Shown: piece after piece, positions 40,168 to 52,212 of the stretch | Numbering within the stretch: position 1 is the stretch's first letter | How the letters are laid out: each line of letters begins with the position of its first letter | DNA from: Desulfocapsaceae bacterium | Lineage (GTDB): Bacteria > Desulfobacterota > Desulfobulbia > Desulfobulbales > Desulfocapsaceae | Direction: 5' to 3' | NCBI GenBank assembly: GCA_031292275.1 | Contig: JARLHL010000014.1 | Span: forward strand, 1 to 52,306 | Length of the DNA stretch: 52,306 nucleotides | Position numbers and translations under genes: made by a program | The notes under the pieces: generated by a model | What the model was told of the DNA's origin: nothing | Databases searched by the model: none | The model's input: the letters and a program-made list of their open reading frames with translations, nothing else

Positions 40168-40243
40168 GGGGTTATAGCTCAGCTGGGAGAGCGCTTGACT
40201 GGCAGTCAAGAGGTCGTCGGTTCGATCCCGACTAGCTCCACCA
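40168..40243 (+). tRNA. tRNA-Ala (anticodon GGC), integration target
   Basis: A 76-base cloverleaf: acceptor GGGGTTA with TAGCTCC, which includes the G3:U70 pair that identifies tRNA-Ala. The anticodon loop CTGGCAG gives GGC, and CCA is encoded at 40241-40243. Its last 47 bases are repeated exactly at 52166-52212, so the tRNA hosts the att site of the mobile element and was kept intact by the element's copy. Confidence 0.97.
40197..40243 (+). repeat. Left attachment site repeat (in tRNA-Ala)
   Basis: 47 bases from the anticodon stem to CCA, identical to 52166-52212. Divergence begins immediately on both sides (T versus A before; TTCATAT versus ATCATAA after). Confidence 0.93.
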
Positions 40244-40251
40244 TTCATATT

Positions 40252-40287
40252 AAGCACTTAGGGTCGCATGACCTTAAGTGCTTTTTT
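40252..40287 (+). terminator. Element-borne terminator behind tRNA-Ala
   Basis: A 14-bp stem (40252-40265 with 40270-40283, one G-T pair) with a GCAT loop and TTTTTT. It lies inside the element, so the element supplies a substitute terminator for the tRNA it occupies. Confidence 0.85.
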
Positions 40288-40298
40288 GTTTTTGTGTG

Positions 40299-40320
40299 TT
40301 TTGTCCCGCTCCTGTCCCGC
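40299..40320 (+). repeat. Left copy of a 22-bp end repeat (probable integrase arm site)
   Basis: TTTTGTCCCGC followed by TCCTGTCCCGC, that is two TGTCCCGC words 11 bases apart. An exact copy lies at 52013-52034 near the other end. Related TGTCCGG/TGTCCCGG words follow near 40352, 40373 and 40566. Confidence 0.75.
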
Positions 40321-40397
40321 CTTTTAATTTTCTAAGGACATAAAAAAGCTGTCCGGAATCAAACGGAATAGGTGTCCGGGATGGACTGGAATACGCA

Positions 40398-40452
40398 ATC
40401 CCGTAAATGTAGTTTGAAAGGAGCGGTTCGGTGAGGATTAATAGGAGATATC
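40398..40452 (+). repeat. 55-base direct repeat, copy 1
   Basis: Matches 40590-40644 with four mismatches; core TTTGAAAGGAGCGGTT and ATTAATAGGAGATATC. Offset between copies is 192 bases. Confidence 0.85.
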
Positions 40453-40589
40453 ATAACTTTCAACGGCCAAGCTAAGTGTAGCGCGTCGCAAGGTTTGACA
40501 CCATTTGACGCGAGGTTTGAAGCCGCGTTTGGATCCTAAAAATGACCGAGACAGGCCGCAAAATCTGTCCCGGTTTTGTCGTCCTAAAT

Positions 40590-40644
40590 ATCCCTTAAAT
40601 GTGGTTTGAAAGGAGCGGTTTGGTGAAGATTAATAGGAGATATC
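40590..40644 (+). repeat. 55-base direct repeat, copy 2
   Basis: Second copy of the repeat at 40398-40452. Each copy is preceded by a TGTCC[C]GG word about 25-30 bases upstream, so the duplicated module may be larger than the clean match. Confidence 0.85.
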
Positions 40645-40817
40645 TTTACTAATGAAGGTGGCCCGGCAACGGCACTACCAGGGATCTTTTATATGCAATC
40701 GTTCTAAATACGATAGACCTGCTAGGAATGGAATATTTGCTCTTTAAAATATCGGGATTTGTATCAGACAAAAATTCACCTACGTTTTCATATTCCCCGA
40801 TTAGAGATAAGGGAAGC

Positions 40818-41129
40818 TTATTTCTCAACTGATTTTTTCTTTGTTTTCACCTTAACTGGATTTACAATTGAAGCATCTACGGACAAGGGGCCGATCACAC
40901 CTGAAGGGGTCAGCCCAACTCTTTTTAGTCCGATCATTGCACTAGGGAGAATATTTTCAGGAGTGGCACCCATTGCTCCAAGGGAGATCTGAAACTCAAT
41001 GGACAGATCATAATGACCTTCATGAATATCATAATGTTTTATCAGTAACTTGACAAGATCATGCAGGGACAACGGATCTTTTATGGGTAAGACAGGGGAC
41101 ATGTTATTAGGTGGATTAATGTTCGACAT
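40818..41129 (-). CDS. Unknown protein encoded third in the hicAB operon
   Basis: A 103-aa protein of unknown function with a Lys-rich C-terminus (VKVKTKKKSVEK) and no signal peptide or membrane helix. Its middle (YDLSIEFQISLGAMGATPEN) looks like a compact folded domain. Its start overlaps the end of hicB by 14 bases, with GAAGGA seven bases before ATG, so translation is coupled to the antitoxin. Its position suggests a role with HicAB, or a passenger gene kept by it. I do not recognise the family. Confidence 0.7.
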   Translation of the reverse strand: MSNINPPNNMSPVLPIKDPLSLHDLVKLLIKHYDIHEGHYDLSIEFQISLGAMGATPENILPSAMIGLKRVGLTPSGVIGPLSVDASIVNPVKVKTKKKSVEK

Positions 41130-41586
41130 CGGGTTTTCCTTCTTTTGTAAAAGGAATTATACGAGGAGTTCTATCCGAAGAAGATACCCATGCTTGAGTA
41201 GGATTTTCTCCAATAGGAGCGTTGTGAAAATGGGAGATGATATTTACCTCTTCATGACCATTAACAAATACTTCAATAGCTCTGCCAACTAGGGCATTAA
41301 GAGTAATTCCTTCTTTGTAGGCTTTTATTGTAGCGGCATGATGTAATTCCGGAGAAATACGCACATTGAATTGACCTTTTAGGGGCTTTTGAGGTTCACG
41401 CCCCAAGGCTTCACACGTCTCCAGATAATCTTCAACAGCTTCTTCAAATGCTCGCTTCAGATCCTTGGGCGTATCAGCTTGGTAGGTGATGAGATCTTGG
41501 ATGAAACGAATTTTTCCACGGCAGACAGAACGATCCATATCGATTTCAGCTGTGCCCTCGTACCCTTTATAATTAATAGTGTCCAT
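41116..41586 (-). CDS. hicB: HicB-family antitoxin
   Basis: Antitoxin that binds HicA and represses its own operon. The 156-aa protein has the partly degenerated RNase-H-like HicB domain (YKGYEGTAEIDMDRSVCRGK, then AFEEAVEDYLETCEALG). A C-terminal ribbon-helix-helix segment follows (FNVRISPELHHAATIKAYKE then ITLNALVGRAIEVFV). GGGAGGATATT precedes ATG. It lies 11 bases after hicA and overlaps the third gene. Confidence 0.88.
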   Translation of the reverse strand: MDTINYKGYEGTAEIDMDRSVCRGKIRFIQDLITYQADTPKDLKRAFEEAVEDYLETCEALGREPQKPLKGQFNVRISPELHHAATIKAYKEGITLNALVGRAIEVFVNGHEEVNIISHFHNAPIGENPTQAWVSSSDRTPRIIPFTKEGKPDVEH

Positions 41587-41597
41587 AATATCCTCCC

Positions 41598-41852
41598 CTA
41601 TATAAATCCTTCATTTTTGAGTTTTTCGGAAACATCAACAATACAACCTTTGTCAACGCAAGGATTGGGGTGTGGTTCATGACAGATAATAAGAGAGTTT
41701 TTTTCCTTGTTGAAAAATTTTCTTCTCGATCCCCTATTGATTATCACAGTATAGCCGAAGTGTTCCAAGAGGCTCTTAAGATCTTTCCATTTAATGTCAG
41801 AAGATGGAGAACGGGATCGAAGTTTTTCTATAATAGTTTTATGTTTTGACAT
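41598..41852 (-). CDS. hicA: HicA-family toxin (mRNA interferase)
   Basis: Small basic double-stranded-RNA-binding-fold toxin that cleaves mRNA when free of HicB. The 84-aa protein has the HicA core: SDIKWKDLKSLLEHFGYTV, then GSRRKFFN and HEPHPNPCVDKGCIVDVSEK. In many HicA proteins the first motif carries the catalytic His (GSHH); here it is Arg, as in the branch that pairs with RHH-type HicB. The ATG has no clear ribosome site. It is the first gene of a three-gene operon in AT-rich DNA unlike the chromosome. Confidence 0.85.
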   Translation of the reverse strand: MSKHKTIIEKLRSRSPSSDIKWKDLKSLLEHFGYTVIINRGSRRKFFNKEKNSLIICHEPHPNPCVDKGCIVDVSEKLKNEGFI

Positions 41853-41878
41853 TTTATATTATCATAAATCGGTTTATT

Positions 41879-41916
41879 AGTAACTGAAATATAGTTACTT
41901 TTTGATATTATTACAA
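41879..41916 (-). promoter_or_regulatory. hicA promoter with overlapping operator palindrome
   Basis: On the minus strand TTGTAA (41916-41911), 17 bases, TATATT (41893-41888). A perfect palindrome AGTAACT-N7-AGTTACT (41879-41899) has the -10 box inside its spacer, ideal for repression by HicB. The start point would lie about 30 bases before the ATG. Confidence 0.7.
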
Positions 41917-42252
41917 TCCACCATATATTGTACTGCGGCAAGTATTCGTTGGTTGTGGTAGTGGTTTCAACCCACCTTCTCCGAGGCCCTGCCTATAAAA
42001 CCACGAAATGAATGTTATACAGATCTGTATTATCATTTTAGGCATATTGATCGAGGTCCTTTCAAAGTAAAGATATTTCCACTAGATATTGATTACCAAC
42101 AATGACCCAGCAACGCGTTTTTCTACAAAGGGGCCTCATAACAAGTCTCAGCATCAACAGTTTTCAAAATTTATCAACATCGTGTCGGGGTTCAGAGTGC
42201 GAATGTTTTCAATCCGTTACAAGGAGGAACCCCCCGCTTTGAGGAAGTAGCA
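41917..42252. other. Gene-free stretch between the hic operon and the ankyrin gene
   Basis: About 340 bases with no reading frame of note, no repeats and no clear terminator for the ankyrin gene. Confidence 0.5.
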
Positions 42253-43731
42253 TCACTTATTAGCACCGTATTTTCTGAGTAATGCTGCGATATCCTGATG
42301 GCCATCCAAGATGGCCCAAATCAAGGCAGTGTGACCACTCATCTGCATCTTTGCATTGACGTCAGCCTCTTTGTCAAGGATCGCTTTCACGATATCCTTG
42401 TCGCCATAATGGGAGGCCGCCATCAAGGCGGTTTCACCACCATTCGCCTTTGCATTGACGTCAGCCCCTCTGTCAAGGAGCATTTCCACGATATCCTTGT
42501 GGCCGCATCGTGAGGCCATAATCAAGGCGGTGTCACCACCAAGCTCCTGTGCATTGACGTCAGCCCCTCTGTTAAGGAGCATTTCCACGATATACTTGTG
42601 GCCATTCTGGGAGGCCAGTATCAAGGCGGTTTCACTAAATCTTGTCTTTGCATTGACGTCAACCCCTTCGGCAAGGAGCGCATTTACTGTATTTGAATTG
42701 CCAATAGATACAGCCTGAAACCAATCCGCTGTATGATCTGATTGGGGAGGTTGTGGCGGAACGAGTGGTGTTTCTTCTTTTTGGGGGTTGGCGTTCTGAC
42801 TGCTGTCATTTGTGTTCTGTGGAGCCTGAACTCGTTGCTGGATCGCTTCTTGTTTCTGGCGGAGGCGCTGCTCGGTGCTACGCTGGCGCATTTCTTCCAC
42901 ATATTTCCTTTGTGCTTCTGGATGACTTAATCTGTATGCGGCTTCGGGATTCGCTTTGCGCCATGCGAGTGAGGATTCGTAATACCAAAAATTTATATAG
43001 CCAATGCTGGAGAAGACAGCCAAGATCACCAGCCATGTCCCCAAAAATTCCTTCCTGCTCCAAACACGAAGGGCTTCTCCTTGATAATGCGCTTTTACAC
43101 GGATAAACAGTTCCACTGCGCAGCCAGCCAAGGTAGCGTTTAAAAAGACCGGCGTCCCGATCATTAACACATTGACAAAATAACTTGGCGCTATGCTCCC
43201 TGAATAAAAATGATGCCCCAGAAATTCCCATGGGTTCCCCAAAACCATGATCAGGAAGACAAATAGCCAGCCAACTCCGTCCGCAGTGCCACCATCTAGG
43301 AAACCTGAAACAATACCACCTACACCCCACGACAAAAAAATTATAAAGACGACGGCCAGATTGGTAGAAAGGATTGGGTTAAATCGAATGATCTTTTTAG
43401 CAGGTCTAGCTTTCTCGGTTTCTTGATCATCCCTATCGGATTGGCCGATATTAACAGCCCTTACAGGTATATTCTTTTGTTTTGGATCAGCTTGAATTAA
43501 TAAAATAAATTTCTTGCATTCACTTACTATTTCTTTGTCCTTAGGGGTGTTAGCACCAACGATCGCATTGAAAATCTTTAGAGCTGCCTCAAATTCCTGA
43601 GCATGATATTTCTGAACCGCTTGATTAAATTTCTTTTTTAAAAGGTGAGCATAATACTTGGCAAAGATGATTCCACATGATTCGCATTCAACAGTCCCTT
43701 GCTGAATATGCGTACATTTAGGGCATTTCAT
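42253..43731 (-). CDS. Zinc-ribbon membrane protein with C-terminal ankyrin repeats
   Basis: A 492-aa protein with unusual architecture. Residues 3-19 form a four-Cys zinc ribbon (C3, C6, C16, C19). A helical TPR-like stretch (residues about 35-80) and about four membrane helices (125-250) follow. Next comes a charged, Gln-rich coiled-coil and linker (270-335). About five ankyrin repeats end the protein, each with the ADVNAK/GHKDIVEMLLDRG pattern. The DNA of the repeats is itself tandem with a period near 99 bases. Both soluble ends are probably cytoplasmic. Function unknown; ankyrin repeats imply binding of a protein partner. GGGA lies before ATG. Confidence 0.8.
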   Translation of the reverse strand: MKCPKCTHIQQGTVECESCGIIFAKYYAHLLKKKFNQAVQKYHAQEFEAALKIFNAIVGANTPKDKEIVSECKKFILLIQADPKQKNIPVRAVNIGQSDRDDQETEKARPAKKIIRFNPILSTNLAVVFIIFLSWGVGGIVSGFLDGGTADGVGWLFVFLIMVLGNPWEFLGHHFYSGSIAPSYFVNVLMIGTPVFLNATLAGCAVELFIRVKAHYQGEALRVWSRKEFLGTWLVILAVFSSIGYINFWYYESSLAWRKANPEAAYRLSHPEAQRKYVEEMRQRSTEQRLRQKQEAIQQRVQAPQNTNDSSQNANPQKEETPLVPPQPPQSDHTADWFQAVSIGNSNTVNALLAEGVDVNAKTRFSETALILASQNGHKYIVEMLLNRGADVNAQELGGDTALIMASRCGHKDIVEMLLDRGADVNAKANGGETALMAASHYGDKDIVKAILDKEADVNAKMQMSGHTALIWAILDGHQDIAALLRKYGANK

Positions 43732-43892
43732 TCTTTTCCCATTTCATTGAGTCTCATAATGTATAGGCCATCGGATAACATCATCTTTATGGTTTTTCGA
43801 GACCTATCAAAAGTCCAGATACTTCCCACACATCATAACCTGAAAAATGAACCACAGATAGAAAAAGTTTACTGAATATTTATAATAGGGAA

Positions 43893-43932
43893 GCTCTATT
43901 GATTGGAGGCTTTTTGCGGCAATCAATAGAGC
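43893..43932. terminator. Hairpin after the methylase fragment
   Basis: Perfect 12-bp stem GCTCTATTGATT/AATCAATAGAGC around a 16-base loop, 34 bases past the methylase stop. The T-run is short, so it may be a weak terminator. Confidence 0.6.
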
Positions 43933-43965
43933 CTTTTACATGAATAATCGGCCTTAAACCGGCGT

Positions 43966-44466
43966 TTAATTATAGTTGGAAATGAGCAACTCGGTGCGGA
44001 TTTTTTCCCTAGATTTCTTCGATGGATAGAGGGAGTATTTCAGGGCGGTTTCTTCGATCGAAAAGCCCCGGAACATATCCCTGACCTCCGGAGTGTCATT
44101 GAGAGTCATCAAGAATTTCCCTTTCAAATTTTCAAGAAAAACCCTCAGATCCAGAAAATCCTGCCTGGTAAAATCGTACTTATATCCGGGTATATTCCAA
44201 TACGGCGGATCCAGGAAGAAGAAGGAATGCGGCCTGTCATATCTGGGGATTAGATCCCTAAAATCCTTACACTCGATGATGACATGCGCCAGCCTCCGCC
44301 AGGCTTCCTCCAGAGTGCTCTCCAAGGTGAGAAGGTTCAGCCGGGGCTTGCCGGTGGTGCTGGTCCCGAAGGTCTGGCCGGTGATATGGCCGCCGAAGGC
44401 CGATTTCTGCAGATAGAGATACCTGGCTGCCCGCTGGATACCGCTGCCAACAAAACAATTTCTCAA
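43966..44466 (-). pseudogene. 5'-truncated Dam-type (D12) adenine methyltransferase
   Basis: The 166 codons match the C-terminal two thirds of phage-type DNA adenine methylases. RAARYLYLQKSAFGGHITGQ and TFGTSTTGKPRLNLL are followed by catalytic motif IV LDPPYW (residues about 82-87) and a normal C-terminus. The N-terminal part with the SAM-binding KWxGGK and FxGxG motifs is absent, and an in-frame TAA lies five codons upstream of the first TTG. No remnant of it is visible upstream, where a repeat cluster begins. It is probably not active as a methylase. Confidence 0.75.
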
Positions 44467-44511
44467 TGTCGGTTTCCCTTAACAAAACTTAACACGCACG
44501 AAGCCTTTTCG

Positions 44512-44790
44512 GTGGTAACCTCTGTGGTAACCATGCCTCTACCTGGCGACTATCTCAATATTTAACAGTGGGGCCTTTTATAACTTCTAGAAACACAAAA
44601 GGCCGCTCCATTCACCAAAAACCAGCACCACTAGAAAAGGCAAGTTTTGACCTCTTGCATGGGGTTGTTTTAAAAATAAGGGGGCAAGGGATTTTCCTGA
44701 CATAACTGTCAGCATAGGGGTTTTTTAGGTCAACCGCCGGTTAACCGTAAACCGTCAACCGGTTAACTTAGTTGACGTCAAGCAGTTGAC
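44512..44790. repeat. Cluster of GTTAAC/GTCAAC/GTTGAC words
   Basis: Two GTGGTAACC words 12 bases apart (44512, 44524), then seven GTYRAC-like words in 62 bases: 44729, 44739, 44754, 44761, 44771, 44777 (partial) and 44785. Pairs form palindromes such as GTCAACCGGTTAAC. It lies in a gene-free stretch (44467-44944) between the methylase fragment and the zinc-protein gene. Confidence 0.7.
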
Positions 44791-44944
44791 TGATTTTTTA
44801 ATCTTTCTGAGCGCATATTTTATTTTTCGTGTTACGGGGTAAACCAAATCTTGAAAGTTTATAGCTGGGAATACATCGAGGCGCGCAATTGCCCGCCTTG
44901 CAATGCACGCAGGAAGGACCCGCAGAACTAAATAGCTAGGGGGC

Positions 44945-45469
44945 TTACGCTTTCGCCGTCCCTTCCTGATCCTGCCAGCCAGGATATACCGCATCCGCTT
45001 GCATTTCTTCCAAGATCGCCCTGGCCTCTTCAACAGGCACGCCCATGTGTCTGGCGGCATCTTCGGCGCTGATCGCATAGCCCTTGCCTACATGCTTGAA
45101 TCCTGTATCCGCTAATAGTTCATTCATCTTTGCCGCCGCTGCCTGGTCACGTGCAGTTACGTCTCGAATAATCCAGAGCATGACACCTTCCTCATAATAG
45201 GATGCGTCCAGGTGCTCCGATCCTGTATCCGAAGTTCTGCGAATCTCTGAACGGTCTGTGATGCCATCAGCAACCGCCTTTGTGATTTTCAGAGACTCGG
45301 CCATACTAAGAGCCTTACAGGTGCAGCGCAATAGCCTGCTGCCGCACTGTGGACACGATTCGACTACACAGGCATACTGGTGTAACTGGCCTCTATAGGC
45401 GTTACAGCCGGGGCAGTTATCGGCAAGTATTGTCATCTTGGTTTCCGATCCGAATTTAATTCGTTCCAT
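44945..45469 (-). CDS. Element protein with a double zinc-binding CCHC/CCCC domain
   Basis: A 174-aa protein of unknown function. The N-terminal domain has ligands C19, C22, H30, C34, C39, C42, C49 and C51, with the same spacing as the chromosomal protein at 24386-25060. The rest is helical and acidic, with a segment ISAEDAARHMGVPVEEARAI that resembles a small helix-turn-helix. AAGGA precedes ATG. It is the last intact gene of the replication operon, 55 bases after the TubC-like gene. DNA or RNA binding is a reasonable guess. Confidence 0.75.
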   Translation of the reverse strand: MERIKFGSETKMTILADNCPGCNAYRGQLHQYACVVESCPQCGSRLLRCTCKALSMAESLKITKAVADGITDRSEIRRTSDTGSEHLDASYYEEGVMLWIIRDVTARDQAAAAKMNELLADTGFKHVGKGYAISAEDAARHMGVPVEEARAILEEMQADAVYPGWQDQEGTAKA

Positions 45470-45524
45470 GATATTTTCCTTTTATGTGAAGCCCGCCCAT
45501 AAAGGTGAGTTTCGGAGGGTTCTT

Positions 45525-45866
45525 TTAATGAAGAATACATTTCTTCAAGTCTGCCGGGAGTCGGTGCCACACCTCCGACCACGGGCCGGTATCCAGTCGC
45601 CGGACACATCCGGGCATGGCTGGCTGTCCTTCAATGGTGATCGTCTCCGACTTTGGGCAGCCTCGGCAGGCTATCGGGGTATCCTGATCGTCATGGAGAA
45701 GACCGCCAGAAAGAAGCCTGATTAGTTCCGCCTTGTGTTCCTTGATGGTCTGGCGGATTTCGTCGGTAATCTTTTCCTTGGGTTCGACCTTCAGAAGGTC
45801 ACCAGGTAAAAGCGACAAGACCAAGCCTGCATTTCTGATACTGTCGAGTATGATCGCTGGTTTCAT
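45525..45866 (-). CDS. TubC docking domain-like small protein
   Basis: A 113-aa protein. Its first 55 residues match the pattern of the TubC N-terminal docking domain (LLxxLRxxGxxLxLxGDxLxVxxP...LTxExxxxIxxHKAELIxLL; here LVLSLLPGDLLKVEP and IKEHKAELIRLL). This domain is known from hybrid PKS/NRPS assembly lines but also occurs alone near primase genes in mobile elements. The C-terminal part has CRGCP and GPWSEVWHRLP. Its ATG overlaps the stop of the helicase fragment by one base (TAATG), with GGAGG upstream, so the two are translationally coupled. Confidence 0.78.
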   Translation of the reverse strand: MKPAIILDSIRNAGLVLSLLPGDLLKVEPKEKITDEIRQTIKEHKAELIRLLSGGLLHDDQDTPIACRGCPKSETITIEGQPAMPGCVRRLDTGPWSEVWHRLPADLKKCILH

Positions 45867-46582
45867 TAGAAGACCTCCGCGTTTTCATAATTGCCTGGCA
45901 ACAATTCCAGATTAGGCACCTTTTCAAGGTCTCCGCAGGAAACTACCTCTTTTTCTAAAACGTCTTGCGAATTATGCGAATTTTGCGAATTATTCGTTCT
46001 GTCTTGGCAATAATTCGCAATAATTCGCAATTCGCAGAGTGGTTTTATTTTCCAGAGCGTCGATGACTTCCGTTTTCCTTCCTCTCGAAACTTCTCTTCC
46101 TGTATTTGGTTACTCCCCTTTAACTGTGAAAGGATCCTCGATAACTGGCCGCTACTGACATGGTTTCCAAGGAGACGGTGGATCTCTGTTGAGGTCATAG
46201 GTCTTTCCGTAAGCGCTGCAAGAATCTTTTCTGCGTTACCGTCCGTCTGCCGACCATCGAAAATAAACCGTGCAGACTGTTCGCAGTATCGCCATAAAGC
46301 AAGTGCGGCCTCCAGGTGGTCAAGGCCTATGGTGGTCATTCCATCAAGGAGGCAATACAGCATTGAAAGCCTAATGACCTGCGCCTCTGCTCGATTGATG
46401 ATACAACCAACCAAGCCGGGGTTATCCTTGGTCAAGTCGGCATAGTATTTTTCCGACCATGCTTTCCGTGCCTCCCACCCCATATCAATCTTGGTAAATT
46501 CCACATCACGAAAAAGATTAATAACGTCGACTAGTCGCCGCCGAATCGCATCAAGTTTATAATCGTCCATTGGTTCCGGCAA
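45866..46582 (-). CDS. Primase/helicase (DUF3987-like), C-terminal fragment
   Basis: 238 codons in the same frame as the upstream fragment at 46613-48196, separated only by a TAA and ten sense codons. The bridging codons read VCARRSKTVP and lead into LPEPMDDYKL, which matches the usual uninterrupted family sequence. The body contains INRAEAQVIRLSMLYCLLDG and the helix bundle ALWRYCEQSARFIF; the end is a winged-helix-like tail. The first possible start is TTG with no ribosome site, so the fragment may not be made unless the stop is read through. Confidence 0.7.
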   Translation of the reverse strand: MPEPMDDYKLDAIRRRLVDVINLFRDVEFTKIDMGWEARKAWSEKYYADLTKDNPGLVGCIINRAEAQVIRLSMLYCLLDGMTTIGLDHLEAALALWRYCEQSARFIFDGRQTDGNAEKILAALTERPMTSTEIHRLLGNHVSSGQLSRILSQLKGSNQIQEEKFREEGKRKSSTLWKIKPLCELRIIANYCQDRTNNSQNSHNSQDVLEKEVVSCGDLEKVPNLELLPGNYENAEVF

Positions 46583-46612
46583 TGGGACTGTTTTTGATCG
46601 CCTTGCGCATAC

Positions 46613-46615
46613 TTA
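46613..46615 (-). other. In-frame TAA splitting the primase/helicase
   Basis: The minus strand reads AAT CGT ATT CTT TAA GTA TGC GCA AGG; both sides continue the same protein in one frame, so this is a nonsense codon and not a frameshift. Family members usually have an aromatic residue here. Confidence 0.85.
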
Positions 46616-48196
46616 AAGAATACGATTTCCAAAGCCGTTCAAGGCCTCTGTCTCGCTCAACTTGGCATGGAGTTCTGATATGGTGATATGACTAATCCAA
46701 CCAATATGCGCGCCTGTGGCGGTTGTCTTGCTGGTCTTGGTTAAGGGGTCAAGATTGCCACTATCCCAGGCACATCGAATAACCGTTGATAATGTGTTTC
46801 CTTCACGCTTGGTTTGCGACATAGCGCCGCCAAACTCTTCATCAAGGATAAAAAAACGCTTATCCTTAACGCCGGGATCCGCGATAATGTCACATTGGTT
46901 TTTCTCATCCCATTTTTTAACAGGATCCCGGACTGCATGAATGATCCCCTCGCCGGATGAAAACGGGCCTGGACTGTATCGTGCTTGACGTTCTATCTTA
47001 CTATACAGACGATTTACAGGTTTGCTGCTGGTGCCCTTCCTTGCCTTCGATGATGCCCCTACGATTACAGCGGCAAATCTGGCGTGGTGTTTTCCGTCGC
47101 CGACGAAAAGAGTCGGGCCACTGCCAACCTCAACGGCGAATCGGGCTAGAAAGGTTATCAGGATCGCCGCCGGGTCCGCCTCGCTGTTCTCAGACGCAAG
47201 GGCCACAAAATCGCCCGCAATGCCACGGTAGGCCTTTTGATCCATGACAGGCCATTCCTGAATATCCGCTTCCCATTCATCTGAATCCGGGGTTAATGCC
47301 GGTTCCTGCTGGCCTGAGAGTGCTGCCGCCTCGATACAGGCCTTGACCGCAGCCAGGCCTTCCTGTTGGTGATAGTCATTCCAGTCCTGGCCGGTGGCCG
47401 GTGGTATCGCGACAAAACCCTTGATAGTCCCTGCTGCCTCGGTAGCTGACTTCTGTCCGGTGCCGCTCTTGTCGTGGTCTCCGGCGATGATGATCTTCAT
47501 GTCAGGGAGTTTTCCCCGCATGTATCGAGCAACGGTTAAAATGTTTCCGGCACTGAAGGCAACAGCCACGGGGAAACCGGTTGCCTCATGGATAGAAGCC
47601 CCTGTCGCGTAGCCCTCGCAGATTACAAAGGCGTTTGCCCCTGGCATATTGCCAATGGCTAAATAACAACCAGATACGCGCCCGCCAGTTAAGAACCACT
47701 TACTGTCGGTCTGGTCGATGAATTGCAGGCTGTGAAGGTCGTTACTGATGCGTAGCGGGATAACCAAGCTTCCTTTGTACAACCGCACACCATGCGCTTG
47801 GACTCCCTTCTTTGATAGGTAAGGGTGATCCGTGCAGGGTTTGGCCTCTTTCCATATCCTGGACGCTTTCTTCCGGGATTCCTCTTGTAGGCGCTTTTCT
47901 TCTTCTGCCCGTGCCCGCCGCATTGCTTCGATCCGCTGCCTGTGTGCCTGCTCTTCTGCCCCGGTAAGCTGCCTGCCGACATCGGCACGCCATGACTGGG
48001 TGTTGATCTCTCCTCGCCATGATCCGAACGAACCCGCAGGAATGCCGTCTAGATGAAGGACATAAAACCCGGCGGTGTCATCCTTTTTGCCACTGGCGGA
48101 AAAGCGATGTAGTTTTCCATCACCTATTATTTCCGCCGGTAGTTGGAGTCCAGCTGCTTCAATGACCTGCCGGAATGTTTCAATATGATCGATCAT
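46613..48196 (-). CDS. TOPRIM primase / DUF3987-like helicase, N-terminal fragment
   Basis: 527 codons of an element replication protein, which would be about 776 aa intact. An N-terminal domain (residues 1-80) and a charged helix are followed by a TraC-like TOPRIM domain with catalytic ICEGYATGAS (192-201) and IIAGDHDKSG (236-245). A RecA-like domain then shows the Walker A-like GASSKARKGTS (380-390) and Walker B-like FFILDEEFGG (about 446). It stops at LNGFGNRIL by an in-frame TAA. GGGGG precedes the ATG, which overlaps the preceding gene by 17 bases. Probably inactive or only partly functional. Confidence 0.82.
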   Translation of the reverse strand: MIDHIETFRQVIEAAGLQLPAEIIGDGKLHRFSASGKKDDTAGFYVLHLDGIPAGSFGSWRGEINTQSWRADVGRQLTGAEEQAHRQRIEAMRRARAEEEKRLQEESRKKASRIWKEAKPCTDHPYLSKKGVQAHGVRLYKGSLVIPLRISNDLHSLQFIDQTDSKWFLTGGRVSGCYLAIGNMPGANAFVICEGYATGASIHEATGFPVAVAFSAGNILTVARYMRGKLPDMKIIIAGDHDKSGTGQKSATEAAGTIKGFVAIPPATGQDWNDYHQQEGLAAVKACIEAAALSGQQEPALTPDSDEWEADIQEWPVMDQKAYRGIAGDFVALASENSEADPAAILITFLARFAVEVGSGPTLFVGDGKHHARFAAVIVGASSKARKGTSSKPVNRLYSKIERQARYSPGPFSSGEGIIHAVRDPVKKWDEKNQCDIIADPGVKDKRFFILDEEFGGAMSQTKREGNTLSTVIRCAWDSGNLDPLTKTSKTTATGAHIGWISHITISELHAKLSETEALNGFGNRIL

Positions 48197-48545
48197 AACT
48201 GCCCCCTAGACTGTCGAGAACGATAGTGCAGGCGTCAACCTGCCTCGATTGCTCCTTGTTAATCGATCCTGACTCGATGATCCGTGTCGCGTGTCTGCGG
48301 AGAAGGTGGCGTGTCGCCTTTTTCTCATAGCGAAGGAAAATTTTTTCTTTCATGGCGGGTTGCATTAAATCAGAGAGCCAGCACGCCAAGTGAAATGATA
48401 TTAGGTTGTGACAAACCAAAAGACCGACTCCCGCCTTGAGACATTGCTTTATTGGTGATTTATCGTTATAATCTCGGAAGATATTTTGAGCGGCCCCCGG
48501 CCCGGAAGCCGATTTAAAGGGGGCCGCTTTGCTATTTGAAGACAT
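48180..48545 (-). CDS. Unknown protein in the replication operon
   Basis: A 121-aa protein without a recognised domain; the centre is hydrophobic and Cys-containing (GVGLLVCHNLISFHLACWLS) and the C-terminal half is basic. GGAGG precedes ATG three bases after the AlpA-like stop, and its end overlaps the primase start by 17 bases, which strongly suggests it is real and coupled. Confidence 0.65.
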   Translation of the reverse strand: MSSNSKAAPFKSASGPGAAQNIFRDYNDKSPIKQCLKAGVGLLVCHNLISFHLACWLSDLMQPAMKEKIFLRYEKKATRHLLRRHATRIIESGSINKEQSRQVDACTIVLDSLGGSYDRSY

Positions 48546-48548
48546 AAC

Positions 48549-48794
48549 TTACGCCTCCAATCTGGCAATTAACCAGTTAACAAAAGACTCCACCGGGTAG
48601 CACTGCCGCCGCCCAAACTTAAAAGGGTTTGCGGGACCTTCCCCTTTTGAATCTAGGTTTGCCAAGTACCCAGCCGAAAGAGCGCCGCCGGTAAAAGCCG
48701 TAACCTCATCTCGGCATATAATGGTGCTCGGATACTTCGCCGCTGCTGCCCTGATACATTGGATAGCCGCTTCTCTACTTTGTTGTGCTGCCAT
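48549..48794 (-). CDS. AlpA/excisionase-like DNA-binding protein
   Basis: An 81-aa protein. The C-terminal half (STIICRDEVTAFTGGALSAG, FGRRQCYPVESFVNWL) resembles the winged MerR-like fold of AlpA/Xis proteins, which control excision or transcription in P4-like elements. The ATG at 48794 is preferred over one 20 codons upstream because AGGAGTAAGAAC precedes it. It is the first gene of the primase operon, downstream of the CTGTCAAAA repeats, which are candidate binding sites for it or for the 426-aa protein. Confidence 0.72.
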   Translation of the reverse strand: MAAQQSREAAIQCIRAAAAKYPSTIICRDEVTAFTGGALSAGYLANLDSKGEGPANPFKFGRRQCYPVESFVNWLIARLEA

Positions 48795-48874
48795 GTTCTT
48801 ACTCCTGGTGTTAATGCCTGGCCGGTTCTGCAGGTCCCGACCATTTAACCGCATACGGTGTTTGGTATAATGCT

Positions 48875-48902
48875 ATAATAGGACGAAACACGAGGAATTC
48901 AA
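48875..48902 (-). promoter_or_regulatory. Promoter of the AlpA-primase operon
   Basis: Minus strand TTGAAT (48902-48897), 16-base spacer, TATTAT (48880-48875), about 80 bases before the AlpA-like start. Confidence 0.5.
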
Positions 48903-48932
48903 CGACAAAGTAACGTGATTACAGCATGTTAG

Positions 48933-49055
48933 CTGTCAAAATGAGGGTTGCAAGACTGTCAAAAAAAACGCCCTGAATAACTCGAAAGATAGTCAGGGCG
49001 TGGATTTGGAGAAATTTTGACAGGTGTCAAAATTCAGGTGTCAAAACTGTCAAAA
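48933..49055. repeat. Iteron-like cluster of [C/G]TGTCAAAA
   Basis: Six 9-base copies: 48933, 48956, 49015 (inverted), 49024, 49038 and 49047. The last four lie within 41 bases; 49015/49024 are back to back, and starts are 9, 14 and 9 bases apart. They flank the terminator at 48961-49001. Confidence 0.8.
48961..49001 (-). terminator. Terminator after the 426-aa gene
   Basis: Minus-strand hairpin ACGCCCTGA/TCAGGGCGT (perfect 9 bp, 16-base loop) followed by eight T residues, about 65 bases past the stop of the 426-aa gene. Confidence 0.88.
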
Positions 49056-49064
49056 ATTATTTTC

Positions 49065-50345
49065 TCATTTTTTGTTTTTTTTGAATTCGATCATGAAAGA
49101 TTTCACTTTGAGGATATTTTCCAAGGTGATTTCCAATTTGTCATCTTTATTTTTCCATTTTATGCCAGCTTTAACCGCCCATTTTTTAAAAGTGTTTCGG
49201 GACATGCCGGAGTCAGAGTGAATTTCTGCCCAGGTTGTGCGTAGGGTTCCGGGGGTTAGTTGTTCGCCGGAAACATCATTTTCGCTATGCTCATCTGGTC
49301 GGTCGGTCGGGTCCGGTAAGGTAGTGCTCAATGCTTTGAAGGTTTTCCTGTCCATCTCTACAACTACCTTGTCTGGCGGAACGAATTGCCTTCCGGTTTC
49401 TATATCTAAGGTGTGTGAGATATTGAAGGCGTTGAGGTATTCGACAAACTTCTGTTTGTCAAAGCCGATCTGTTTGAGCCTTCTTCCTGTGGTGCTTCCA
49501 ATTTGAGGGAATGCGCCAGACTGTTGGAGTTGGGAAAGCAGGCTTAATCCTTCCAATGGTGAGTAGCCCAGGCTTCTTCTGCTGCCAATAATTGCACCAC
49601 TGGGAAGGTTCAGGCCAGCATCAGGGGAAACTTCAATCCACTGTAGTAGTGAATGGGCAGATAAAATATTTTCAAGCTGCCCCGCCGCATCCCTGATATG
49701 CTGCTGGATTATAATGTCCTTCATATTTTGATAATCTTCTGTAGATATGCCCGGCGGGTTCGGCCTGCATATCGCAAGGTCATAAACTGCAGCTGCAAGA
49801 GAGACAAAGTTTTCTATTTCTTCATCTTGTTTGGCAAATTCTATAAACTCTTTCAAATCTTGTGTCCGGATAACCATGTTCAAACTTTTTTCGTCTATGG
49901 TAGAATCCAACGTGCAGATTATCTGCATATTTTCGCTGGACACATGCAGATTGAAATTTTTTTTAGGGTTTAGCCTGGGTCCACTCTCAGTTAAGATGAA
50001 ATCGCCTTTAACCTCTCCGCCCTTTACCTGCATTCCTTTCAATTCGCAAAGACGGCGTTTCACCTCATCCTTTAGCCGATCATATAACGGCAATGTCCAC
50101 AAATCAGTAATATGAGTTTCAAGCCTAGTATTATTGAAATGATCTATCTTGCCATCATCCGACTTGATAGGCTTTGCGGTCGTGCATTGTGCTTTGATTT
50201 TATCGGGGAAGTAAACTGCAACTTTCAGACGGGTTTGAAGGATATACTGATAAACCTGTGCTTCGGTGATTTTCCTGTTAAAGACTTCTGATAGATGCGT
50301 CGCCGTCTCTGAAATCGTCAACCAGTCTTGACCACTGATAGCCAT
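49065..50345 (-). CDS. Unknown 426-aa element protein with N-terminal HTH-like segment
   Basis: A soluble protein I cannot assign. Its N-terminus (WLTISETATHLSEVFNRKIT then EAQVYQYILQTRLKVAVYF) resembles a segment seen in other proteins of integrated elements and looks like a helix-turn-helix. The middle is mixed alpha/beta. The C-terminus has a second helix-turn-helix-like stretch (SDSGMSRNTFKKWAVKAGIK) and a basic tail. Two DNA-binding ends fit a replication initiator or master regulator acting at the adjacent CTGTCAAAA repeats; this is inference. A terminator follows. Confidence 0.75.
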   Translation of the reverse strand: MAISGQDWLTISETATHLSEVFNRKITEAQVYQYILQTRLKVAVYFPDKIKAQCTTAKPIKSDDGKIDHFNNTRLETHITDLWTLPLYDRLKDEVKRRLCELKGMQVKGGEVKGDFILTESGPRLNPKKNFNLHVSSENMQIICTLDSTIDEKSLNMVIRTQDLKEFIEFAKQDEEIENFVSLAAAVYDLAICRPNPPGISTEDYQNMKDIIIQQHIRDAAGQLENILSAHSLLQWIEVSPDAGLNLPSGAIIGSRRSLGYSPLEGLSLLSQLQQSGAFPQIGSTTGRRLKQIGFDKQKFVEYLNAFNISHTLDIETGRQFVPPDKVVVEMDRKTFKALSTTLPDPTDRPDEHSENDVSGEQLTPGTLRTTWAEIHSDSGMSRNTFKKWAVKAGIKWKNKDDKLEITLENILKVKSFMIEFKKNKK

Positions 50346-50506
50346 ATCTTCATCCTTTTTGAAGATCCTTGAAAATAATCACCGGGCAGGCCGTTAAGGT
50401 TACGGCTTTTCGCTCCGTCGAGCTATCCCGATGAAAAGACAGATTACTTTTTCAAAAACCGCTTGAAGATACCCCTCGCCTGTCCGTCTTTCGCTTTAAA
50501 GCTTTT

Positions 50507-50719
50507 TCATCCCTCATCAACATCTATTTCCACCAATTCCTGATCCAATGGACCAGCACAACAACATTCATCTTCATCAATTTTTTTATGGTACGCTTCT
50601 CGCTCTTCGGGTGTCATCGCCGCGACCTTTACCTTTTCCTCTATCATCATGCGATGAAGATCTTTACCTTTTTGAATCATTTCTTCTTCAGTCAGTTTTT
50701 TCCAGACCCATTTTTTCAT
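50507..50719 (-). CDS. Small protein co-encoded with the integrase
   Basis: 70 aa, with a basic, Trp-containing N-terminus and an acidic C-terminus with three adjacent cysteines (DEDECCCAGP). GGGGTGAATT precedes ATG, 17 bases after the integrase stop, so it is probably in the integrase operon. No known family; it is small enough to be a directionality or regulatory factor, but nothing proves this. Confidence 0.6.
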   Translation of the reverse strand: MKKWVWKKLTEEEMIQKGKDLHRMMIEEKVKVAAMTPEEREAYHKKIDEDECCCAGPLDQELVEIDVDEG

Positions 50720-50736
50720 AATTCACCCCTTGTTTT

Positions 50737-51981
50737 TTAGCCGTTCTGTATCCTCAAGATGTCTTGTCCGTTCTGTTTCTGGTCCAAAAGGTCCATGGCA
50801 CTCCTTACGCTGTCGTCACTCACATGCGAGTATCTCTCTGTCATCTTCAAAGATTTGTGACCAAGCACCTTTCCAATGACCGGCAACCCTACTCCTGAAT
50901 TGACAAGCCAGCTTGCCGCCGTATGCCGCAGCGAATGGAAGACAACCCTCATGCGCCGGTCGGTAATACCCTCATTCAAACCAAGAGCCCTGACTACTCG
51001 GTCAAAGACATTTGAGACGCTTCCTTGAATTTCTGGTGAGGTTTCACCATCAGACTTTCGACTATGGCGAGTGGGGAAAACAATGTCATTCGGGGTGCCT
51101 TTTTCCATAAACCGAAAAAGTTTTTCAACCTCTTCCGTCATAAAAACAGAACGTGTTTCGCTGTTCTTCGGATCCACAACAAGGATTTCCCGATTATTAA
51201 GATTGATGTGTTGCCAACGTAAAGAGGCTATCTCGCCAAACCGCATGGCAGTGTTGAGGGACAGTAGAGACATACGATAAAGCGTTTGGGAATGTTTCTG
51301 TAATTCATTCAAAAGAAGCCTGGCCTCATCTGGGGTAAGATACCGCTTCCGGGCATTATCAAATTTCTTGTTCTTTAGAAAAAGTCTCGTAGGGATGTCG
51401 CCAGAATATAGAGAATGGGCGGTTGCAAAGGTATAGACTTGTCGGACAATGCTTTTCACGTATTGAATTGTCCGGGGTGCCTTTCCTGCTTTCTCCATCC
51501 GTTTCCGGATCCTTTCCAGATCAAGAAGAATGATTTCATTAAGCCGTTTTTCACCGATAACAGGCTCAATCCACTTTTCATAAAGAGAACTCTCATTTTT
51601 AAGGGATTTCTTGTCCGAATGAATGCAGCAATACTGGCTATATACTGCCCTTAATTTAGTCCTATGCTCAAGCTCCTGGCGAACCTCCTCTTCTCGTTCA
51701 CGTTCGGCCTTTTCTGAATCGGCTCGCATCTGTAATTCCCGCTTTTCGTTCAAGGTCCGGGGGCCGGTGCCTACAGTGGCATTCGCCTTCAGTTCGGACA
51801 GGATCGCCGCCGCCTTCTTCTCAGACCACCCCTCAGAAGCCCAGCCTAGGCCCTCAGATTTTTCCTTGCCAGCAACCTTGTATCTGATCGTGAAATATTT
51901 GTCGAATCCGACACCATGTTTTCGGGTAGCGTGAATCCGGTATCGTATACCAGGGGTGTTGCATTTGATCCATGTAGACAT
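50737..51981 (-). CDS. int: Tyrosine site-specific integrase
   Basis: Catalyses integration into tRNA-Ala. The 414-aa protein has an N-terminal arm-binding-like domain and a SAM-like core-binding domain (residues about 108-200). The catalytic domain has R247 (TAMRFGE), K272, H349-x-x-R352 (HSLRH), H375 (LGHKSL) and nucleophile Y384 (ERYSHV), all present. GAGG precedes the ATG. It lies at the end opposite the intact tRNA, reading inward from the right att repeat. Confidence 0.96.
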   Translation of the reverse strand: MSTWIKCNTPGIRYRIHATRKHGVGFDKYFTIRYKVAGKEKSEGLGWASEGWSEKKAAAILSELKANATVGTGPRTLNEKRELQMRADSEKAEREREEEVRQELEHRTKLRAVYSQYCCIHSDKKSLKNESSLYEKWIEPVIGEKRLNEIILLDLERIRKRMEKAGKAPRTIQYVKSIVRQVYTFATAHSLYSGDIPTRLFLKNKKFDNARKRYLTPDEARLLLNELQKHSQTLYRMSLLSLNTAMRFGEIASLRWQHINLNNREILVVDPKNSETRSVFMTEEVEKLFRFMEKGTPNDIVFPTRHSRKSDGETSPEIQGSVSNVFDRVVRALGLNEGITDRRMRVVFHSLRHTAASWLVNSGVGLPVIGKVLGHKSLKMTERYSHVSDDSVRSAMDLLDQKQNGQDILRIQNG

Positions 51982-52012
51982 GTCGGGCCTCTTGTAGAAA
52001 ATCAGGGGGTAT

Positions 52013-52034
52013 TTTTGTCCCGCTCCTGTCCCGC
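52013..52034 (+). repeat. Right copy of the 22-bp end repeat
   Basis: Exact copy of 40299-40320 in the same orientation, between the integrase start and the right att repeat; a probable integrase arm site. Confidence 0.75.
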
Positions 52035-52095
52035 TCTAAGGGGTTTAAACAGACTGAAATTGAATTATGCTACATGAAGAACTATACACGATATA

Positions 52096-52113
52096 ATATT
52101 GTATATGCAATAT
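52096..52113. promoter_or_regulatory. AT-rich palindrome upstream of the integrase
   Basis: ATATTG-N6-CAATAT in a very AT-rich stretch. On the minus strand TTGCAT with an 18-base spacer to TATAGT could be the integrase promoter, so the palindrome would lie over it. Confidence 0.45.
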
Positions 52114-52165
52114 AAAATGAGTATATAATGATTTAACGTGAAGGTACGTGAAAGGTATAAAAATA

Positions 52166-52212
52166 GACTGGCAGTCAAGAGGTCGTCGGTTCGATCCCGA
52201 CTAGCTCCACCA
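52166..52212 (+). repeat. Right attachment site repeat (tRNA-Ala 3' half)
   Basis: Exact 47-base copy of 40197-40243, starting in the anticodon stem; it cannot form a tRNA by itself. Confidence 0.93.

Follow-up and report, generated by a model that had tools for sequence, protein, structure and literature searches.

The locus considered here raises the question of which protein reads a cluster of short repeats, and to what effect, in a mobile island of a Desulfocapsaceae bacterium. The repeats lie beside the gene of a 426-residue protein (p426). The initial annotation of the window, meaning the whole 52,306-nt stretch of contig JARLHL010000014.1 that was analysed, called them iteron-like, regarded such arrays as typical of replication origins or cooperative operators, and suggested that p426, described as a protein with two helix-turn-helix (HTH) motifs, could represent a new family of initiators or regulators.

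The array and the island that carries it

Six exact copies of [CG]TGTCAAAA are present, as had been claimed, at 48933, 48956, 49015 (inverted), 49024, 49038 and 49047, and this number is beyond chance: dinucleotide shuffles of the window (n=100) gave a mean of 0.98 copies and a maximum of 4, and none reached six. Shuffling the 400 bp that surround the p426 gene end 100 times likewise never gave 8-mer clustering as strong as that of the array. Sub-array B (48933..48964, plus strand) consists of two CTGTCAAAA sites 23 bp apart, at 48933 and 48956. Sub-array A (49015..49055) packs four sites into 41 bases, those at 49024, 49038 and 49047 direct and that at 49015 inverted, exactly as first described. 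The 49015/49024 pair forms a palindrome with perfect arms, TTTTGACA-GG-TGTCAAAA. Two sites of sub-array A have the sequence CAGGTGTCAAAA, in agreement with the consensus found in several arrays of phage primases, and AGGTGTCAAAA, the extended word of several phage arrays, occurs twice in the window array. The two sub-arrays include a 35-nt direct repeat, 80% identical and 91 bp apart.

The array sits between the 426-aa ORF and a 101-aa ORF, in keeping with its reported place between the p426 gene and the primase operon; it begins 10 nt past the p426 stop codon and spans +10 to +132. A hairpin followed by eight T (about 48961..49001, minus strand, fold z -2.7) is the likely terminator of the p426 gene; its T-run overlaps the site at 48956 and the hairpin itself sits between the sub-arrays. 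The output of a simple terminator scan did not include a hairpin at about 48968-49001. The A+T content is 56% between the sub-arrays (48965-49014, with the hairpin), 66% in sub-array A, and 83% in a tract that touches sub-array A at the 3' end of the p426 gene (49056..49090). Outside the array, the genome contains no exact copy of the palindrome TTTTGACANNTGTCAAAA and two places that match it at 2 mismatches; a host-wide regulon of the palindrome was dropped because the genome lacks a second exact copy. Among 252 genomes of the order, three TGTCAAAA within the tested span were found only in the source genome and in G477, which carries another Desulfobulbales element.

The island (40197..52212) is 12 kb long and has 47-bp direct repeats at both ends, at 40197-40243, inside a tRNA-Ala (ggc) gene, and at 52166-52212. 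Its gene order is integrase, 70-aa ORF, p426, array, 81-101-aa ORF, 121-aa ORF and primase-helicase. The tyrosine integrase (50737..51981), p426 (49065..50345), the 101-aa ORF (48549..48854; likely start 48794, giving 81 aa), the 121-aa ORF (48180..48545; no family above cut-off) and the gene for a Toprim_3 primase joined to a DUF3987-type helicase (45866..48196) all lie on the minus strand. Two features by which PICIs and other satellites are recognised are found together in the island, namely an integrase with attachment repeats at a tRNA gene, and a primase/rep gene, here interrupted by a stop, with an iteron array at its 3' end. At the other end of the island, adjacent ORFs of 156 and 84 aa (41116-41852) resemble a HicB/HicA toxin-antitoxin pair.

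An in-frame stop at 46613, after codon 527, splits the primase-helicase gene into ORFs of 527 and 238 aa. Five close relatives (L040, L041, L044, L045 and L046) keep the gene open as a single frame of 776-800 aa, and in three other close relatives the gene is cut or broken; the replication gene of the island may be inactive, or there may be an assembly error at the stop. The initial annotation spoke of an AlpA-primase operon. The 101-aa ORF occupies the place of an HTH_17/AlpA-type gene in relatives (L040, L041) and its product shares 45% identity over 67 residues with a product encoded in another island, L051; the AlpA label, for which Pfam, PHROGs and NCBIfam gave no family match, is drawn from this position and this identity and is best treated as provisional.

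A second array at the primase-helicase gene

A scan for clustered 8-mers revealed a second array, AATTCGCA in six copies, three inverted and then three direct (45966..46036), which lies inside the coding 3' end of the primase-helicase gene. Eight close relatives of this primase-helicase (45-70% identical over the matched parts) were compared, and in six of them the gene end or its vicinity holds a significant cluster (reached in 0 of 60 shuffles). The cluster is of AATTCGCA inside the gene in L043, of AATTCGCA at 225-290 nt past the stop in L040, where a partial copy of the gene end recurs, and of AATTCGT inside the gene in L041, L042, L044 and L048; by the 60-shuffle test, L045 and L046 have no cluster.

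Further primase-like loci number 36, of which 18 are complete at the 3' end and have a part of helicase length after the Toprim domain. Significant clusters, with nine different words, are present in ten of these 18 (L295, L296, L300, L307, L308, L311, L313, L314, L317 and L321) and absent from eight (L294, L301, L310, L312, L318, L319, L322 and L325). None was found in the 17 loci whose frames stop 4-93 residues behind the Toprim match; one locus cut by a contig end, L315, was left out. The words in the Desulfobulbales mobile elements L295, L296, L300, L307 and L308 are AACCGGC, TGCGACA, CCGTAAC (twice) and AAAGGAC, and those in L311, L314, L317 and L321, also Desulfobulbales mobile elements, are CGCAACA, AACCGAC, GGTGAAC and ATCCGTA.

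Because an origin-like array sits at the end of the primase-helicase gene, the TGTCAAAA array is not the origin to be expected of the island: the AATTCGCA array is presumed to be the main origin, and the TGTCAAAA array probably is not. The suggestion of a replication origin at the TGTCAAAA array is weakened to this extent, the more widely shared origin-like array being AATTCGCA, inside the 3' end of the primase-helicase gene. As a conserved origin of the island's primase family, the TGTCAAAA array was rejected. Gene-end arrays of the AATTCGCA type agree with published PICI and SaPI origins, which lie 3' of the rep gene (PMC6092414, PMC7581432).

Recognition helices and array words

In other mobile elements TGTCAAAA forms arrays of 6-12 copies at the 3' ends of primase-helicase genes, which bears out the term iteron-like. 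In G477, a Toprim_3/AAA_25 primase-helicase gene is immediately followed by ten TGTCAAAA within 219 bp; the integrase of this element shares 37% identity with that of the island. The HTH of the G477 primase-helicase (NERTARRM) differs from that of p426, and thus the word does not demand the helix described below. Behind the G477 array, a 189-aa protein (L180:7451-8017) ends in a putative winged HTH that is 43% identical over 56 residues to the HTH of the neighbouring primase-helicase; it may carry a free-standing copy of the helicase DNA-binding domain, and a head maturation protease gene comes after its gene.

A scan of genome contigs for the inverted-direct-direct pattern returned 104 stretches. 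Among the strongest after G477 are those in the Firmicutes loci L188 (nine sites), L196 (six) and L205 (six), all three located at the 3' end of primase-helicases of PHROG 2597, an assignment made from the three members scanned. Flanking genes were inspected in 16 loci, a set that leaves aside the six-site loci L183, L216, L247, L261 and L284, and in 13 of the 16 (3-4 sites), all but L188, L196 and L205, no replication gene was recognised by eye. Many of the 80 titled stretches among the 104 are from Streptococcus or Lactococcus nasutitermitis. In the latter, separate inverted pairs of TTTTGACA/TGTCAAAA, often with 12-bp spacing, are numerous and spread over several contigs (L181, L183, L184, L206, L214, L216, L226, L230, L241 and L247), and many Streptococcus records share a common inverted-direct triple with spacings of 16 and 21. 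In viral contigs, a motif-only scan gave at least 120 TGTCAAAA stretches, many of which are 10-24-bp tandem repeats, and a stricter inverted pattern was in no excess (4 vs 2 for the reversed control).

A protein search from L188, L196 and L205 yielded 80 viral relatives, 83 proteins together, and after L330 and L367 were dropped for want of downstream DNA, 81 phage primase-helicases remained (from L327-L406 plus L188, L196 and L205). The array word of each was taken as the commonest of eight words with at least 4 copies within 300 bp of the stop. In these proteins the array word follows the recognition helix of the C-terminal HTH, with helix classes and words that were defined after the table had been seen. 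All seven proteins of class N..K have TGTCAAA in at least 6 copies, a number found in none of the 74 others, where the maximum is 2. The word is GGTCAAA or GGGGTCA in 8 of 8 proteins of class N..R, GGTCCAA in 4 of 4 of class S..Q, AGGGACA in 9 of 10 of class K..RR, AGGGAA in 26 of 30 of class K..RN and GCAAAA in 3 of 3 of class D..R. The Arg class (n=12) is mixed, with GGGGAA in 4, GCAAAA in 1 and no word in 7, and none of the seven proteins of other helix classes has a word. The seven N..K arrays hold 6-12 copies that straddle the gene 3' ends, from -40 to +225 of the stops; four of the seven cases came from the motif-free protein search and three were found through the motif.

When a FastTree tree is computed with the C-terminal 95 residues removed, the helix class has to change at least 39 times along it. 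Independent pairs agree with the word in 5 of 5 cases for class N..K (sign test p = 0.0625) and in 6 of 7 for class K..RR, with one tie (p = 0.031). The relation between helix class and word, which is correlative, is possibly a DNA-recognition code of phage primase-helicases. Among the papers listed in the literature searches, none was found that reports such a code or the present element, although one may exist.

The C-terminal HTH of p426 has the recognition helix GMSRNTFKKWA, which is of class N..K and lies 47 residues from the end of the protein. Among 59 non-overlapping ORFs of the window, p426 alone has such a helix. A regular expression for the helix, which was written with p426 in view and allows its Phe, matched 12 of 4,245 ORFs in five locus sets, two of them chosen by motif: 1 of 59 in the window, 0 of 539 in 53 Desulfobulbales loci (including L313, which holds the G477 array and its other HTH), 4 of 881 in viral primase loci, 3 of 1,728 in motif-selected viral loci and 4 of 1,038 in motif-selected genomic loci. 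In eleven of the twelve matches the helix is 29-47 residues away from the C-terminus, and each of the eleven is accompanied by 6-16 TGTCAAA within 300 bp of the stop. The remaining match, internal to a frame of 876 aa, has no TGTCAAA. The motif-selected viral loci with the N..K helix at the array, L107, L151 and L154, are near copies of each other. The same helix is present in L330, where the contig ends at the stop codon and the last 300 bp hold 1 TGTCAAA; its ORF was displaced from the 4,245-ORF scan by a longer antisense frame.

The last 86 residues of p426 are modelled as strand-helix-turn-helix-wing-helix, a winged HTH with a mean pLDDT of 66.9. The closest structural counterpart, with a Z of 5.5 and an rmsd of 2.3 over 52 residues, is the DNA-binding domain of pSK1 Par bound to centromere DNA; the tool itself describes such a score as middling. 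For a match of the presumed MerR/Par-like winged HTH to solved structures, Foldseek gave an E of 0.28 at best. An AlphaFold model of the full-length protein was discarded (pLDDT 35.6). Thus, of the two HTHs first proposed for p426, the C-terminal one is backed by a model of modest quality and the N-terminal one was not confirmed. No primase or helicase family was detected in p426 with Pfam, PHROGs or NCBIfam, and a PDB sequence search gave one match at E = 1 and none that was significant. The p426 C-terminus ranked 40 (E = 17) against an HMM of the N-class HTH, and phmmer with this C-terminus gave no match at E up to 10 among 25,992 ORFs, including those of L188, L196 and L205. On both tests the p426 HTH failed as a demonstrable homolog of the primase HTHs.

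Residues 6-67 of p426 are common to unnamed proteins with a 'WLTVSEAARHLS' N-terminus from six genomes (L006, L007, L053, L054, L427 and L428; E 9.9e-8 to 3.5e-3). These resemble p426 in this segment and in gene position, four being beside integrases, but have other C-termini and no significant array at any of the six gene ends. The initial annotation had held that homologs of the p426 gene lacking an array beside them would speak against its proposal, and in the literal sense the six are such homologs; because their C-termini differ, they do not test the C-terminal HTH. The view of p426 as a new family is right only in part, its N-terminal segment being common to these unnamed proteins. Besides p426 itself, no full-length relative was found in 257 genomes of the order, in a class search that likewise covered 257, in 395 genomes of the phylum, by peptide patterns in viral and genome contigs, or in phage and plasmid records; the viral contigs also gave no relative by N-terminal alignment, and the p426-array pair was the only one of its kind in the collections searched. 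A search with the p426 C-terminus gave, apart from p426, 21 weak matches (E 0.005 to 0.1), which look like noise, as judged from the 19 that were inspected. In L041 (8956-9000), GTGGAA occurs four times in alternating orientation just 3' of the gene in the place of p426 (3 of 100 shuffles).

Readings of the array

The array is probably a cluster of p426 binding sites, read through the C-terminal winged HTH, as judged from sequence comparison and the modelled fold. We propose p426 as the reader because helix class N..K goes with TGTCAAA in unrelated phage primase-helicases and because the array sits directly 3' of the p426 gene, which repeats the phage layout; the helix-to-word relation and this placement also favour the earlier suggestion that p426 is a reader or regulator. 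The winged HTH would bind the array behind its own gene, and the bound protein would assemble a protein-DNA complex there. Since p426 has no recognisable primase or helicase, this complex would most likely control the adjacent alpA-position/primase operon, or start or limit replication of the island, and the replication enzyme would use its own AATTCGCA array. Both the binding and its effect are what we infer from the layout and the helix class.

On a purely transcriptional reading, the array would be an operator at which p426 or the 81-101-aa protein controls the alpA-position/primase operon, with no part in replication; this is rather unlikely. The array does lie upstream of that operon, a weak promoter-like pair (48875-48902) is about 30 bp from the nearest site, and AlpA of an E. 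coli PICI is an activator of its own expression (PMC6092414). However, the promoter scan gave no excess over shuffles (12 vs 11.0), the sites reach far upstream, over the p426 terminator, and no comparable array is found upstream of alpA in four relatives: L040 and L044 have none, L043 has none by eye, without shuffles, and L041 has GTGGAA four times, which was reached in 3 of 100 shuffles. It is unlikely that a primase-helicase, and not p426, reads the array as an origin or as what remains of one, whether the array stayed behind when a replication gene was replaced or corresponds to the origin of some other element or helper phage in related hosts, as in the G477 element. The TGTCAAAA array at the 3' end of a primase-helicase gene in that related host, and the 83% A+T tract beside sub-array A, are consistent with such an origin. 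Against it, the primase-helicase of the island has a different array in the usual place, the TGTCAAAA array lies behind p426 and not behind a primase, and the helix class of p426 fits the word. The one further primase-like place listed in the genome (C23, L303) ends 13 residues past its Toprim match, with neither a helicase part there nor a significant array.

A centromere-like site for partition or silencing, on which p426 would spread in the manner of a one-protein partition system, is very improbable. The best structural match is indeed pSK1 Par on centromere DNA, and gene and array are adjacent, but the Z score of 5.5 is middling, the island is integrated, and no match to a ParA-like family appeared in the ten island proteins scanned. 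Least credible, and disfavoured, is a chance cluster or a low-complexity by-product of the terminator and its A/T runs: the word is A-rich and sub-array A is itself rich in A/T, yet neither shuffle test reproduced the array in 100 trials, the sites include a palindrome and mixed orientations, and the same word recurs at primase-helicase gene ends of other elements.

The reading that p426 binds the array gains a context from known systems. The PHROG 2597 phage primase-helicases share with p426 a C-terminal HTH helix of the form N-[TSY]-x-K and a TGTCAAA array at the gene 3' end, and several share the extended word AGGTGTCAAAA. Their helix lies within the last 29-41 residues, and the domains PriCT_2 and AAA_25 are present in L196. 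Homology between p426 and these proteins could not be detected, and the HTH taken alone also falls short of significance by HMM. Satellite P4 encodes the alpha protein, a primase-helicase, and has short origin repeats of the GGTGAACAG type. The island is, like P4, of satellite size and combines a primase-helicase with short origin repeats, but differs in word and protein family, and it is the array of the primase that is in a comparable place, not the TGTCAAAA array. The GGTGAAC found four times in L317 recalls the P4 repeat.

In the Rep-ori pairs of SaPIs and PICIs and in SCCmec Cch2, a short word lies directly 3' of the gene and is read by the C-terminal domain of the protein (PMC7581432, PMC6092414). 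The p426 array is similarly beyond chance and directly 3' of the gene of its proposed reader. The differences are that p426 has no recognised helicase or primase domain, that the sub-arrays flank a hairpin instead of an AT-rich stretch, the 83% A+T tract being to one side, and that the primase-helicase of the island has a separate array. By analogy, the p426/array pair is like a SaPI/PICI Rep-ori pair in layout and is not a member of the class, because a helicase domain was tested for in p426 and not found.

We tentatively suggest that a recognition HTH makes up a portable cassette together with the array it reads, which changes as a unit in the phage primase-helicases, in step with a readable code of helix residues and array word, and was captured here by the non-enzymatic p426, a combined proposal that is possible but doubtful. 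If true, the captured cassette gives the island a second, independent control or origin site beside that of the primase, and origin-recognition modules can move to proteins outside the replication enzymes. For p426, an uncharacterised protein, the helix and its word provide a specific and cheap binding test. More generally, the helix-to-word code could serve to predict the origin specificity of phage replication proteins, and the co-variation of helix and word would explain how related elements avoid cross-talk.
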